A stretch of 32,527 bases of DNA from assembly GCA_030696285.1 (NCBI GenBank), contig JAUYSQ010000173.1, positions 1-32,527 on the forward strand, given 5' to 3'. Position 1 is the first letter of the stretch; the number at the start of each line of letters is the position of its first letter. Shown here in pieces: positions 1,765 to 15,951 of the stretch. Made by a program: the position numbers and the translations under genes. This DNA is from Sulfuricurvum sp. GTDB taxonomy: Bacteria > Campylobacterota > Campylobacteria > Campylobacterales > Sulfurimonadaceae. The notes under the pieces are model-generated. The model saw only the letters and a list, made by a program, of their open reading frames with translations. It made no database searches and was not told the DNA's origin.

Positions 1765-2736
1765 ATGAACGTGTTAATAGATAGCTATGGCAGAACCGTC
1801 GATTATTTGCGTGTTTCGGTGACGGAACGGTGCAATTTTAGATGTCAGTATTGTATGCCCGAAAAACCGTTTTCATGGGTACCTAAAGAGAATCTTCTCA
1901 GTTTTGAAGAGTTGTTTGAATTTATCAAGGTTTCTATTGATGAAGGGGTCAAAAAAATCCGGATAACCGGAGGAGAACCTCTTTTACGCGAGGATCTGGA
2001 TAAATTTGTTAAAATGATTCATGATTATAAAAGCGGTATTGATTTAGCGATGACGACCAATGCCTATTTACTCAAAGGTTCCGCTCAAAAGCTTTACGAT
2101 GCAGGACTTCGCCGTATTAATGTCTCTATCGATTCTCTCATTCCTGATGTAGCCGAAAAAATTGCTAAAAAAGATGTATTGAGTCACGTTTTGGCAGGGA
2201 TTGAAGAGGCATTGCGCGTGGGATTTCGAGTCAAAGTGAACATGGTTCCGATGAAAGGGATGAACGACAACGAGATTTTGGACGTCTTGGAATTTTGCAA
2301 AGAACGCAAAATGACGGTGCGCTTTATCGAGTATATGGAAAACGTTCATGCTGAGGTCGATATCAAAGGGATGCAAAGCCATGAGCTTCTCGAGATCATC
2401 GGCAGCCGTTATGCGTATAATGACGAAGGATTTGACGGCCATTCCCCCTCACATTATTACCGCCTTGACGGCGGATATGAATTTGGGATCATCGAACCGC
2501 ACAAAGACGATTTTTGCGCCAAATGCAACCGTATTCGTCTCACTGCTGAGGGGAACTTGATCCCATGTCTTTATTTTGATGAGGCGATGTCTATCCGTGA
2601 TGCAGTACGGCGCGGGGATATTAAAGAAGCAGCCTTGGTATTAAAAGAGGTCATCCGAACCAAGCCGGAGAAAAACCGCTGGTCTGATCCGGATGGTGAA
2701 CTTTCCAAACGTGCCTTCTATGAAACAGGAGGATAA
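1765..2736 (+). CDS. moaA: GTP 3',8-cyclase (molybdenum cofactor biosynthesis)
   Basis: This radical SAM enzyme converts GTP to 3',8-cH2GTP, the first step to molybdopterin. Both iron-sulfur sites are visible: CNFRCQYC near residues 23-30 and [19 protein letters not shown] in the C-terminal third. TGGEPL is the SAM-contact motif, and the chain ends in the conserved Gly-Gly (ETGG). The ATG at 1765 is immediately preceded by AAGG, too close for a good SD. GTG at 1771 lies five bases after AAGGA (1761-1765) and would give MLIDSYGR, the usual start of the family, so 1771 may be the true start. The enzyme is needed for the molybdopterin formate-dehydrogenase-type gene at 5.8 kb. Its last codons contain AGGAGG, which can serve the next start. 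Confidence 0.95.
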
Positions 2737-2780
2737 AGATTGCTTTATCTAGTTGAACATTTTTATGACCATTACAATAC

Positions 2781-2804
2781 GACGTTTGAACGCGTCCAAA
2801 CGTC
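2781..2804. repeat. 24-bp near-perfect palindrome before queE
   Basis: GACGTTTG and CAAACGTC frame a central ACGCGT-like core. Eleven of twelve base pairs match; the exception is 2789 with 2796. It could be an operator or an RNA hairpin within the moaA-queE spacer. Confidence 0.6.
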
Positions 2805-2811
2805 TACGTTA

Positions 2812-2832
2812 ACACTGGGTTTTACTCAGCGT
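2812..2832 (+). other. Second hairpin in the moaA-queE spacer
   Basis: CTGGGT (2815-2820) pairs with ACTCAG (2824-2829), with one G-T pair and a TTT loop. Outer pairs extend it to 2812-2832. No T-tract follows, so it is not an obvious terminator. Confidence 0.4.
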
Positions 2833-2867
2833 AAGGCTCAAAAAGCTACACTTTCGACGGAGCAAAA

Positions 2868-3626
2868 GTGTTATATTTAGTTGAACATTTTTACTCGATC
2901 CAAGGGGAGGGAAAATACACGGGTGTTCCCTCTCTCTTTTTCCGATTTGGCGGATGTAACCTCAAATGCGAGGGATTCGGATGTTCTGAAAAAACACCTT
3001 CAGGGGATGTGATTGTCGGATGCGATACTGTCTATGCGGTCGATCGCAAAGGTTTCGGCGAACTGTGGCAAGAGGTCGAAGAGCTTCAGACTCTCATTTG
3101 GATTATGAACGGCTACCGACTTCCTCCCCACGTCGATGTCGTCCTCACGGGGGGTGAGCCTCTTATCTATGCGAATGAACCGATTTTTGTCGAGTTTATC
3201 GAGCATCTGATCTCCAGTGGCCATCGGGTGACATTTGAGACAAATGGGACGATTGCTCCTGATTTCAAGCGCTACCCTTTTTACGCTCAAGCGACGTACG
3301 CTCTTTCCGTAAAACTTTCCAATAGCGGTGAACCGTACGAACGGCGGGTAAAACCTGAAGCGTACAGTACGATTATCGCCTATGCCAAAGAGAGTTTTTT
3401 TAAATTCACGGTGGACGAACCCTCATTGGTCAGTCATATTGAGTCGGAAATTGATGCGATTATCGCTCCGCATCCTTACACGAGTGTTTATTGTATGCCC
3501 CTAGGCGGTGACAAAGCACACATCGAAGCCAACTGCGAAGCCGTCATCGAGTTTTGCAAACGACGAGGGTTTATCTACTCCGACCGTCTCCATATCCGTA
3601 TCTGGGATCAAAATCATGGGGTATAA
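2868..3626 (+). CDS. queE: 7-carboxy-7-deazaguanine synthase
   Basis: This radical SAM enzyme makes the 7-deazaguanine core of preQ0 from 6-carboxytetrahydropterin in queuosine tRNA modification. The start MLYLVEHFYSIQGEGK and the motif GGCNLKCEGFGC (an extended CX3CX4C cluster motif) are typical of the Campylobacterota QueE form. LTGGEPL follows, with CMPLGGDK and RLHIRIWD near the end. The start is GTG at 2868, with GGAG at 2858-2861 as SD. Just upstream lies an imperfect copy of the gene's own first 26 bases and two dyad-symmetric sequences. queD follows, so two successive pathway steps are adjacent; queC and queF are not in the window. Confidence 0.92.
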   Translation: MLYLVEHFYSIQGEGKYTGVPSLFFRFGGCNLKCEGFGCSEKTPSGDVIVGCDTVYAVDRKGFGELWQEVEELQTLIWIMNGYRLPPHVDVVLTGGEPLIYANEPIFVEFIEHLISSGHRVTFETNGTIAPDFKRYPFYAQATYALSVKLSNSGEPYERRVKPEAYSTIIAYAKESFFKFTVDEPSLVSHIESEIDAIIAPHPYTSVYCMPLGGDKAHIEANCEAVIEFCKRRGFIYSDRLHIRIWDQNHGV

Positions 3627-3627
3627 T
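3622..3627 (+). promoter_or_regulatory. Putative -10 box for queD
   Basis: TATAAT overlaps the queE stop codon. Transcription would start near 3634 and give a leader of about 67 bases before queD. That leader is purine-rich with several weak SD-like sequences. Confidence 0.4.
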
Positions 3628-3700
3628 ACTTATTAAACTTGCACACTCCCTTCTCTCCCGCACTTTTGAGCAGGAGAAAAAGAGGACAAAAAGAGTAACC

Positions 3701-4282
3701 ATGATAATTAGAAAACTTTTTAAATTTGAAAATGCCCACATCGTTCGAGGTTGCTCAACCCAGCGATGTCGTTCATCCCTTCATGGACACTCGTACAAAG
3801 TCGAAGTATTATTCGAATCGGCGTATCTCGATCACGGTCAGATGGTCTACGATTTTGGACTGATGAAGCAGGGGATGAAAGAGCTGATCGACAGTTTCGA
3901 TCATGCCATTGCCCTTTGGGATGGAGACGATGAGGACTATATTTCAGAGATGAAAAAACATTCGCAGCGTTGGGTACAACTTCCCGTTTCTCCCTCAGCG
4001 GAACAGTTTAGCCGCGTCATCTTCGTGATGATCGATATGCTTTTGGGCTGCACCCAATCGATTAATGGGGAGCGTGGCGTGAAATTTCATAGTATTATCG
4101 TTCATGAAACCGATACGGGATATGCGCAAGCTTTTTCGGACGATGCCTATTCCGAACTGATGGGACGTATTGAGCTGGATAAAATCCTTTTTAGTGATGA
4201 GGTTCAAAGTAGTTGGAATGATCCACAACTTTGGGAGAAAGTCAAAAAAGGGGAAACGTTTGTGAATCCCAAGACGGTTTAA
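3701..4282 (+). CDS. queD: 6-carboxy-5,6,7,8-tetrahydropterin synthase
   Basis: The product of 193 residues belongs to the QueD/PTPS fold family. It converts 7,8-dihydroneopterin triphosphate to 6-carboxytetrahydropterin, the QueE substrate. Zinc-binding histidines are visible in FENAH and SLHGHSY, the catalytic Cys region in CSTQRCRSS, and the conserved HETDTGYA near the end. The frame is open back to 3554, but the residues before 3701 overlap queE and lack family similarity. ATG 3701 (MIIRKLFKFENAH) matches the usual start. It is longer than E. coli QueD (about 120 residues), with an insert around the DGDDEDYISEMKK region, as in relatives from this phylum. Confidence 0.92.
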   Translation: MIIRKLFKFENAHIVRGCSTQRCRSSLHGHSYKVEVLFESAYLDHGQMVYDFGLMKQGMKELIDSFDHAIALWDGDDEDYISEMKKHSQRWVQLPVSPSAEQFSRVIFVMIDMLLGCTQSINGERGVKFHSIIVHETDTGYAQAFSDDAYSELMGRIELDKILFSDEVQSSWNDPQLWEKVKKGETFVNPKTV

Positions 4283-4347: not shown

Positions 4348-4680
4348 ATGAAGCTAAGTGAAGAACTAAAAAGCGCTATTGTTGAGAGATTAATGCCATT
4401 AAAGCCTGAGAAGGTTGTATTGTTTGGCAGTTATGCGTATGGTCAGCCAAACGAAAATAGTGATCTTGATTTATATGTGGTAACTTCGGATGAGTATACA
4501 CCTCAAAATTGGCGTGAAAAAAGTGCTATTTTTTTAAAGACTATTAAAACGCTTGATGATATTCAAAAGCAAATCCCGATTGATCTTATTGCTCACACAA
4601 AACCAATGTATCAAAAATTCATCGAATTGGATGGAATGCTCAGTCGCAAAATTTTTCGTGAGGGAATTTCATTAATATGA
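4348..4680 (+). CDS. MNT-type minimal nucleotidyltransferase (antitoxin-like)
   Basis: The 110-residue product has the nucleotidyltransferase signature GSYAYGQPNENSDLDL at residues 27-42 (GS, then Asp39 and Asp41) and a third acidic residue, Asp79, in PIDLI. All three metal-binding positions therefore appear present. Proteins of this size beside a HEPN gene form MNT-HEPN modules, in which the MNT protein neutralises the HEPN partner, in studied cases by AMPylating it. The stop overlaps the HEPN start as ATGA. The pair looks AT-richer than its neighbours and sits between queD and an SDR, consistent with acquisition. Which partner, if either, is toxic here is unknown. Confidence 0.82.
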   Translation: MKLSEELKSAIVERLMPLKPEKVVLFGSYAYGQPNENSDLDLYVVTSDEYTPQNWREKSAIFLKTIKTLDDIQKQIPIDLIAHTKPMYQKFIELDGMLSRKIFREGISLI

Positions 4681-5066
4681 GATCATTGAGTGCAGAATGG
4701 CTTAAGGCAGCGCATGATGATTTAGCGGTTATCGAGAAAATCATTAGTGAAGAGTCTTTATCCCACATGGTTGCTTTTCATGCACAGCAATGCATTGAAA
4801 AAAGTTTGAAGGCAATGGGCGAAGAAAAGCAACTCGAAATTCCAAAAATTCATAAGTTAAAAACACTTTCAGTACGCGTTGGTATTGATTTGTCACTTTT
4901 TGAGAATGCGGAAGATTATCTTCATTTACTGGATGAGTTGTATATTGAATCACGCTATCCAGGGGATTTTGGATTATTACCTAGTGGAAAGCCAACACAA
5001 CAAGATGCCCAAGAATTTTACGATTTTGCAAAAAGCATTTACGAGATGGTAAATGATGAGATTTGA
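4677..5066 (+). CDS. HEPN domain protein (toxin-like partner)
   Basis: The 129-residue helical protein has the PF05168-type HEPN pattern: an N-terminal AEWLKAAHDDLAV helix, AFHAQQCIEKSLKA at residues 33-46, a HKL motif, and YIESRYPGDFG at 89-99. HEPN proteins are often RNases with an RX4-6H motif, but I cannot find that motif here. The protein may therefore be catalytically silent, act differently, or belong to the subgroup that lacks it. It starts in a four-base overlap with the MNT gene, implying coupled translation and a fixed ratio. Function as a toxin is inferred from family and arrangement only. Confidence 0.8.
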   Translation: MRSLSAEWLKAAHDDLAVIEKIISEESLSHMVAFHAQQCIEKSLKAMGEEKQLEIPKIHKLKTLSVRVGIDLSLFENAEDYLHLLDELYIESRYPGDFGLLPSGKPTQQDAQEFYDFAKSIYEMVNDEI

Positions 5067-14713: not shown

Positions 14714-14737
14714 GTGAGCTCTCTGCTGAAGAGAACA

Positions 14738-14777
14738 TAGCGTTAGCGTAGCCAGCGGGATTTTATTCCGATGGCGT
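14738..14777. repeat. Left arm of the inverted repeat flanking the SPFH gene
   Basis: TAGCGTTAGCGTAGCCA, then GCGGGAT and, after TTT, ATTCCGATGGCGT. Each block recurs inverted in the right arm at 15848-15918. The arm ends just before the SPFH stop codon (14779-14781). Confidence 0.75.
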
Positions 14778-14778
14778 A

Positions 14779-15822
14779 TTAATTAGTGGCGCTGATTTTT
14801 TGCGTATCGCCTGATTTGGTATCAAGCCAAATATTTGGAGTTGAACCACCAGGGGTAAGGAAGATTTTCGCGTCTTTGTTCTCTTTGAGTGCGTCGTTAA
14901 ACTTGCCCTGAACTTTGATTTGTTCCAATTTTAGCAATCCTGGAGAGAGTGATTGGGCAATGAGATGGTTGGCTTTGGCTTGAGCACTTGCTTCGATGGT
15001 AAGTGCATTTGCGGTACCTTGTGCTTCCGTCTCTTTTTTGAATGCCTCTTGTTTGGCACGCTCTACATCTTGCTGCGCTTTTTCAACCTCTTGTTTGGCG
15101 ACTTGAACCCGCTCGATTTGATCTTTTACTTTTTGGGGAAGACCAATTTCACGCAGCTGGATCGATTCGAGATCGGCAGGACCATTTTTTTGACGATCAA
15201 CGCTGGCTCGGATACCCGCTTCGATTTTTAGAGCAATTGCATTGCGCATAATCGGTAATGTTTCCGCATCGTATTGACCGATGACATTACGAACGACATC
15301 GCGAGCAACAGGGTCGATGATTTTATCTTCCCAGCTAAAGCCCCAGTTGGAGATTGTTTGAGCTGCGAGCTGTGCATTAAGACGATATTGTACGGTAAGC
15401 TCGATCGTGACAGGAAGTCCCCGTTTATCCAAAACGGTGATAGCCGGTTTGAGCACGATCCCATCACCCGCGGTGGATGCACGCTCAATTTTATCGGCAT
15501 AGTTGATGATACGTACTTTGGTATCGACAATATACACTTGTTGGATTATAGGCATCAGGAAATGGAGACCCGGCATAAGGGCATGATCGCTGTATTTACC
15601 GTTGGTTGAGAGAATGCCGCGCTCCCCTTCATTGATGATGATAAATGGTTTGGCCAAAACGAGAAGGAGAACAAATCCCCCAATGAGCCAAAACATTCCC
15701 GCTTTTTGAGGGTTCATATTAAAATCAAATTTAGGCGGTTTTGGAGCATTAAAACCTCCACCTGTACTCTTTTTTTCTTCATTCTTTTTTTTGTTAAAAT
15801 AATCGTTCATATCGGTTGCCAT
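14779..15822 (-). CDS. SPFH/prohibitin-family membrane protein
   Basis: The 347-residue protein has a hydrophilic Gly/Pro-rich N-terminal tail (about residues 1-38), one transmembrane segment (MFWLIGGFVLLLVLAK), and then an SPFH domain beginning IIINEGERGILSTNGKY. A long charged coiled coil follows (QVAKQEVEKAQQDVERAKQEAFKKE), and the tail ends KIFLTPGGSTPNIWLD. Bacterial relatives such as HflK/HflC and prohibitin-like proteins form ring assemblies that regulate FtsH protease or organise membrane domains. No partner HflC or FtsH is nearby. AAAAGG precedes the ATG. The gene is bracketed by inverted repeats. Confidence 0.9.
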   Translation of the reverse strand: MATDMNDYFNKKKNEEKKSTGGGFNAPKPPKFDFNMNPQKAGMFWLIGGFVLLLVLAKPFIIINEGERGILSTNGKYSDHALMPGLHFLMPIIQQVYIVDTKVRIINYADKIERASTAGDGIVLKPAITVLDKRGLPVTIELTVQYRLNAQLAAQTISNWGFSWEDKIIDPVARDVVRNVIGQYDAETLPIMRNAIALKIEAGIRASVDRQKNGPADLESIQLREIGLPQKVKDQIERVQVAKQEVEKAQQDVERAKQEAFKKETEAQGTANALTIEASAQAKANHLIAQSLSPGLLKLEQIKVQGKFNDALKENKDAKIFLTPGGSTPNIWLDTKSGDTQKISATN

Positions 15823-15847: not shown

Positions 15848-15918
15848 ACGCCATCGGAATACCTCAAGGAGGTTCTTGTACCCTTTAGGTTACATCCCGA
15901 TTGGCTACGCTAACGCTA
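15848..15918. repeat. Right arm of the inverted repeat flanking the SPFH gene
   Basis: ACGCCATCGGAAT (15848-15860) and ATCCCGATTGGCTACGCTAACGCTA (first base 15894) are inverted copies of the two blocks of the left arm. Between them lies an extra 33 bases, CCTCAAGGAGGTTCTTGTA and then CCCTTTAGG. These resemble the inner end of repeat copy 2 at 19451-19478 (CCTCGAAGAGGTTCTTGTG), linking the two repeat families. Confidence 0.7.
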
Positions 15919-15951
15919 AGTTTCCTTGACGCAGGAAGCCCAGCAACATTT

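Follow-up and report, generated by a model that had tools for sequence, protein, structure and literature searches.

A dispersed repeat composed of two hairpins lies between two copies of the start of queE in a Sulfuricurvum sp. genome, at a junction with moaA where related genomes either carry the same insert or lack it. This REP-like repeat was inserted with duplication of the queE start, and we propose that a short leader frame restored the coupling between moaA and queE, an overall reading to which we assign a probability of roughly 55%. The beginning of a conserved gene was entered without the gene being broken, because its start was duplicated, and an open leader frame was left in eight species. 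The arrangement would therefore illustrate, in a specific case, how a region of translational control can emerge from a dispersed repeat.

Anatomy of the moaA-queE junction

The DNA analysed here, hereafter called the window, is a stretch of 32,527 nucleotides (contig JAUYSQ010000173.1 of assembly GCA_030696285.1), and all junction features described below are encoded on its forward strand. The moaA gene (1765-2736) is identified by matches to the Pfam families for radical SAM enzymes (PF04055) and Mob_synth_C (PF06463), and its 3' end contains the motif AGGAGGA (2727-2733). This motif is the Shine-Dalgarno sequence of the original queE start, as judged from relatives that lack the insert (‘empty’ genomes), wherein queE starts a few nucleotides past the end of moaA. 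In the window, the motif instead precedes a first copy of the queE start (copy 1; 2740-2765), which is identical to the second copy (copy 2; 2868-2893) at 22 of 26 positions. For comparison, the best ungapped 26-nt repeat obtained from 300 shuffles of positions 2600-3100 had 19 equal bases.

Copy 2 is in frame with queE (2868-3626), a gene for 7-carboxy-7-deazaguanine synthase, which is a radical SAM enzyme. Pfam yields only radical SAM and Fer4_12 matches for this gene, and its name is based on an earlier, sequence-only reading of the window, on gene order, and on a neighbouring PTPS-family gene (3554-4282) that is queD-like. Directly behind the queD-like gene, a nucleotidyltransferase gene is followed by a HEPN gene (Pfam; 4348-5066), which is the order observed for MNT-HEPN toxin-antitoxin systems.

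The two start copies are separated by a 102-bp insert (2766-2867), whose limits were defined by aligning the eight genomes that carry it. Within the insert is the core of the dispersed repeat (2779-2841), which matches our model of the family (R1, 63 positions) over its full length (model positions 1-63) with 76.5 bits. Hairpin 1 of the repeat is a 24-bp palindrome (2781-2804) with 11 of 12 arm positions complementary, and its pairing is supported by covariation over 37 other copies. A CTAC tag follows (2804-2807), and a second hairpin, recognized by comparison of repeat copies, occupies positions from about 2817 to 2839. The insert also contributes the sequence GGAG (2859-2862), which is the Shine-Dalgarno sequence of copy 2. 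A separate hairpin (2858-2898) is predicted to extend across this sequence and the queE start codon, based on folding scores for filled and empty starts.

Copy 1 now opens a leader frame of 46 codons plus a stop codon (2740-2880) that overlaps queE by 13 nt. The frame is open, equal in length and without indels in all eight genomes that carry the insert, and its TAG stop codon (2878-2880) resides in or near the loop of the start hairpin. The sequence-only reading had described the duplicated start, the Shine-Dalgarno sequence supplied by moaA, the palindrome with its neighbouring hairpin, and the 46-codon overlapping frame, and each of these descriptions is corroborated here.

The insert is polymorphic among relatives

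Among 41 genomes of the genus, the order moaA, copy 1, insert, copy 2 and queE is present in eight (the window, G002, G005, G013, G016, G327, G332 and G335), whereas in 29 others moaA and queE match as two pieces without the insert and with one clean start directly behind moaA. One of the remaining genomes (G015) ends at the junction, where its contig ends, and three gave no match. Given eight filled and 29 empty genomes, the repeat at this junction is an insertion polymorphism and not a preQ1 riboswitch. The comparison of relatives that the sequence-only reading had called for thus upholds its suggestion that an insertion separated two start copies. The new GTG start that it assigned to queE proved incidental, as copy 2 begins with ATG in six of the eight genomes and with GTG in two.

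Structured RNA located ahead of a gene of the preQ0/preQ1 pathway is suggestive of a preQ1-type or other ligand riboswitch that controls queE. However, Rfam returned no family for positions 2600-3000 even at an E value of 10, and at the gathering score no riboswitch or other matching RNA was found in the window; the sequence-only reading had also recognized no known preQ1 pattern. The same structure is also found behind unrelated genes genome-wide, and we regard riboswitch control of queE as barely credible. No tRNA or tmRNA was found.

Trees constructed for the two flanking genes (8 filled, 26 empty and 3 outgroup rows) do not group the filled genomes as one clade, either for moaA (5 changes; AU p 1.5e-7) or for queE (7 changes; AU p 1e-39). 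A single origin of the insert would require about 10 losses on the moaA tree or about 9 on the queE tree. Because the two trees disagree, recombination at the moaA-queE locus is likely. Moreover, the empty locus L030 and the filled locus L034 (from G005) share 63 identical bases that extend precisely to where copy 1 ends, as would be left by clean excision between the two start copies. In a Sulfurimonas genome (L060), a moaA-queE gap of 143 nt contains a different palindromic insert, and the queE start is not duplicated there.

Rates of divergence were also compared along the junction. In comparisons between filled genomes, moaA third positions differ by 0.40-0.59 up to the end of the gene, and those of queE codons 10-21 differ by 0.51. 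Third positions of copy 1 yield values of 0.378 for filled-filled (FF), 0.391 for filled-empty (FE) and 0.415 for empty-empty (EE) comparisons, and therefore copy 1 resembles the single starts of empty genomes. Divergence among filled pairs is 0.119 overall for the insert and 0.170 at the third positions of copy 2, and so the patch of low divergence corresponds to the insert plus copy 2. This patch might be explained either by strong constraint, given that the start hairpin covers copy 2, or by movement between genomes that landed behind a native start. For pairs that are not independent of each other, insert distances do not track moaA distances (rho 0.14, p 0.47) and are moderately correlated with queE distances (rho 0.49, p 0.008).

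These patterns bear on an alternative in which the insertion has simply been tolerated and has no regulatory role. Under such conditions, queE would use its new Shine-Dalgarno sequence, the leader frame and copy 1 would be leftovers, and the insert would be spread and lost by recombination. Consistent with this alternative, the element is one of many genomic copies, its distribution is patchy and does not follow clades, copy 1 has diverged at third positions like a native queE start, and the element and copy 2 alone exhibit low divergence, as if they were recent arrivals. However, the inserts of the window and G005 differ at only 5 of 102 positions even though fourfold sites of both flanking genes differ by 0.55-0.61, and thus either transfer or constraint is needed. 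With the properties of the leader also considered (see below), we judge a tolerated insertion to be possible but rather unlikely.

The repeat belongs to a dispersed, structured family

A search with the 157-bp region identified one further related place in its own genome, and many short matches to the middle of the region were found among 41 genomes (this genome and 40 relatives). An alignment was prepared from 37 copies that reside at locations other than queE; L096 and L099 were dropped from the 39 copies listed, and L097 and L098 had been dropped earlier due to their odd loop lengths. Common to all aligned copies are two hairpins joined by TACGTTAACACT. Compensatory changes affecting both sides are present in 12 of 16 pairs, and 94.2% of pairing cells are paired compared with 75.3% in shuffles. 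The covariation score of 0.532 (0.170 when shuffled) was not equalled in any of 500 shuffles, and the signal was lost when the pairing partner was slid. The evidence for structure comes from this comparison of copies; the folding energy of the spacer by itself is unremarkable (z values of -1.5 and -1.6). The standing U-G pairs of hairpin 2 point to the strand shown as the one that folds. Rfam gave no match for ten other copies of the repeat, and the two-hairpin repeat was found in neither Rfam 15 nor the literature searched.

The covariance model R1 was built on the repeat, and matches with E values up to 0.01 were accepted. By this measure, at least 43 copies are carried by the genome from which the window derives. 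Matches are present in all 25 genus genomes searched, ranging from at least 1 to at least 56 copies each, and, elsewhere in the order, in at least 4 of 16 genomes. Class-wide, matches were obtained for 54 of 298 genomes and 12 of the 58 sampled genera, and a family with such a distribution and such strong covariation deserves a name and a function. The exact repeat core was not found in viral contigs, and plasmids and phages gave no match. That the insert also occurs elsewhere as a repeat is one of the outcomes that the sequence-only reading had listed as refuting a special element.

Two additional copies are present in the window. One, on the reverse strand (14714-14777; 71.9 bits with R1), is located directly behind the stop codon of the frame at 14779-15822, and the other is a divergent, longer copy on the forward strand (15848-15943; 44.7 bits with R1). 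Extra length is also observed for L097 and L098, which carry about 20 additional bases in the loop of hairpin 2. More generally, 55 of 68 copies lie beside stop codons, compared with 130 of 1256 points drawn at random from the loci in which these copies reside. A copy was counted as adjacent if it followed a stop on its own strand by no more than 20 nt, or if a stop on the other strand was no more than 60 nt away; the set of 68 is without tandem groups, rRNA-linked groups and the queE copy. Hairpin 1 is followed by CTAC, which reads GTAG on the opposite strand, in 62 of these 68 copies. The repeat is called REP-like because most of its copies adjoin stop codons and bear this tag.

Palindromic repeats that reside behind genes and that sometimes occur in tandem could also represent attC-like sites, in which case the insert would have been placed by an integron or a related recombinase. 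We consider this explanation highly improbable, since none of the seven matches to integrase TIGR02249 in this genome is over the cut-off, and since tandem copies are spaced 88-112 bp apart without cassettes.

Grouped copies are found in several arrangements. Five tandem units with a 90-bp period are present at L119 (G282:C9), positions 605-1027, and shorter tandem arrays are present at L120, L121, L125, L126 and L128. Two inverted copies reside inside an apparent 23S rRNA, recognized by eye, in the manner of an intervening sequence (L127; G280:C1:465000-466200, positions 504-659). Inverted pairs are also located next to apparent 23S rRNAs at four places in G193 (L114-L117). Recent transposition was considered for these four equal copies; because their flanks beside the apparent 23S rRNA are identical, we take them to be parts of rRNA operons, and they were not used.

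Origin of the duplicated start

Under our preferred reading, the two-hairpin repeat entered queE 26 bp into the gene with duplication of the preceding 26 bp, and queE therefore retained a complete start behind the repeat. At a second junction, which we named rpoA-rplQ by inspecting the encoded ends, the repeat is accompanied in this genome by a 24-bp duplicate, and in the empty genomes G331, G007 and G014 the flanking pieces share an overlap of exactly 24 bases. Other filled genomes carry the repeat at this junction without the duplicate. The rpoA-rplQ spacer (L068, L154-L170) contains a strongly diverged repeat in several genus genomes and is empty in others. The queE copy of the repeat is less diverged than the rpoA-rplQ copy in 13 of 15 shared genome pairs (0.03-0.125 versus 0.03-0.42).

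Across 70 copies of the repeat, a flanking duplication score of 10 or more was reached by three, with 0.74 expected. Most copies are without flanking repeats, and a general target-site duplication by the repeat is not supported over this set. The repeats at L074 and L087 lie at a distance from the element and were not taken as duplications. The duplicate at queE may have arisen by a long staggered insertion, or by recombination between filled and empty loci at short T-rich matches.

A leader frame that could couple queE to moaA

The insertion would have cut queE off from the Shine-Dalgarno sequence in the end of moaA. Ribosomes that load at this sequence would now translate the 46-codon leader formed from copy 1 and the repeat, and would stop 13 nt inside queE. 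Although the 3' end of the repeat provides a new Shine-Dalgarno sequence, both this GGAG and the start codon are base-paired to codons 6-11 of queE. A ribosome translating the leader could open the start hairpin and stop in its loop, such that the same or another ribosome might then start queE. We infer that this leader step would restore moaA-queE coupling, replacing the lost proximity to the Shine-Dalgarno sequence of moaA. The presence of two start copies would also permit clean loss of the insert through recombination, by which the insert probably moves between relatives as well. The related proposal made in the sequence-only reading was that a leader peptide with RNA structures controls queE; an open leader frame and structured RNA are indeed found ahead of queE in all eight genomes, and may control the gene. 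A frame shift joining the leader to queE was also considered and set aside, as the queE frame of the window is closed by a stop codon about 12 codons upstream of copy 2 (by eye).

Codons 2-9 of copy 1 include seven variable columns, all of them synonymous, and the amino acids after the start codon are the same in all eight genomes. If copy 1 were free to change, the chance of observing no amino acid changes in these columns would be 1.5e-4 or less. The start hairpin has a mean z of -3.84 in the eight filled genomes versus -1.23 for 26 empty starts, and one covarying pair is seen in G332. A tolerated insertion does not readily account for a leader frame that stays open without an indel in every filled genome, for a leader stop placed in the loop of the start hairpin, for a hairpin stronger than in empty relatives, or (unless acquisition was very recent everywhere) for the absence of amino acid changes in copy 1. 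In its favour, the repeat-derived part of the leader has a pN/pS of 0.61, versus 0.70 and 0.72 in the other frames, and thus exhibits no peptide-like selection.

The same lack of selection on the repeat-derived part also counts against coupling through the leader, as do several other observations. The start hairpin of the window is the weakest among the eight (z -1.83), and some local structure is present in many empty queE starts too. Covariation of the start hairpin among the eight genomes is modest, with both-side changes in 3 of 30 pairs, a count reached by 109 of 500 shuffles. Furthermore, most other repeat copies have no flanking duplication, and complete constraint on the amino acids of copy 1 would be unnecessary for coupling alone.

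The tRNAs for His, Tyr, Asp and Asn carry queuosine, and NAY codons are clustered near the beginning of the leader. Specifically, codons 3-13 include five to seven NAY codons in all eight genomes, compared with zero or one among codons 14-46, and seven NAY codons are reached in 5 of 8374 eleven-codon windows drawn from 27 genes of the window. Together, these facts raise the possibility of a leader-peptide attenuator that senses queuosine, wherein the speed of decoding at His, Tyr, Asp and Asn codons (mostly NAU) would set the fold of the repeat RNA and hence the output of queE. Queuosine has been linked with NAU codons (PMC10570037). If this mechanism were operating, the cell would read the queuosine content of its tRNA from the speed of decoding and tune queE accordingly, with no need for a ligand-binding riboswitch. 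Such sensing would help explain the retention of amino acids in copy 1, and codon 11, which alternates between His and Tyr, stays within the NAY class. However, the cluster was recognized post hoc, and QueE itself is the source of three of its NAY codons. Codon 12 is Cys or Phe in four of the eight genomes and codon 13 is Lys in three, whereas all amino acids of copy 1 are retained rather than those of NAY codons alone. The alternative RNA fold is also hypothetical. We view queuosine sensing as quite improbable and retain coupling through the leader as the preferred reading.

Comparison with known elements

GTAG-tagged REP elements are repetitive extragenic palindromes (Di Nocera et al. 2013, PMC3733652). 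As described there, these elements share several characteristics with the repeat examined here, including dispersal, a palindromic structure and, at the base of hairpin 1, a GTAG/CTAC tag. Also common to both are a position adjoining the 3' ends of genes, stems that include G-U pairs, grouping in tandem or inverted order, and occasional copies in coding sequences (PMC3733652). Sulfuricurvum and Sulfurimonas are not named in the main text of that article. REP elements are described as single palindromes of 20-40 bp, whereas the conserved unit of our repeat is 63 nt long and includes a second hairpin, joined to the first by a fixed TACGTTAACACT linker. A Y1/RAYT transposase (PF01797) is absent from the genome of the window and is matched in 10 of 25 genus genomes, and the repeat anchor, with up to four mismatches allowed, was not found at eight transposase loci. 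An origin from Y1/RAYT transposases was rejected given their patchy distribution in the genus and their absence here. We use the term REP-like rather than REP because the unit is longer and the Y1 transposase is absent from this genome.

Rickettsia palindromic elements (RPE) are palindromic repeats, roughly 100 nt in length, that may be located within an open frame, and the queE insert resembles them in these respects. In contrast to genes that host such elements, queE is neither extended nor interrupted; its start is duplicated, and any translation of the repeat would be confined to a distinct leader frame. RPE are mentioned in section 15 of PMC3733652. The enterobacterial repeat units RU-1 to RU-3 measure 103-168 bp, contain open frames and, like the repeat described here, invade gene loci, but they differ in being MITE-like (Delihas 2007, PMC2759123). 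With regard to the MITE criterion of a fixed-length target-site duplication, our repeat has 26 bp at queE, 24 bp at rpoA-rplQ (relative to the empty genomes G331 and G007) and none at most copies.

Translationally coupled leaders consist of a short upstream frame whose stop codon overlaps the next start, and their translation can open a hairpin that blocks this start. The queE leader has the same overlapping stop and start, together with a hairpin that covers the start. It differs in that its coupling is putative, and in that the leader arose from a duplicated gene start joined to a dispersed repeat.
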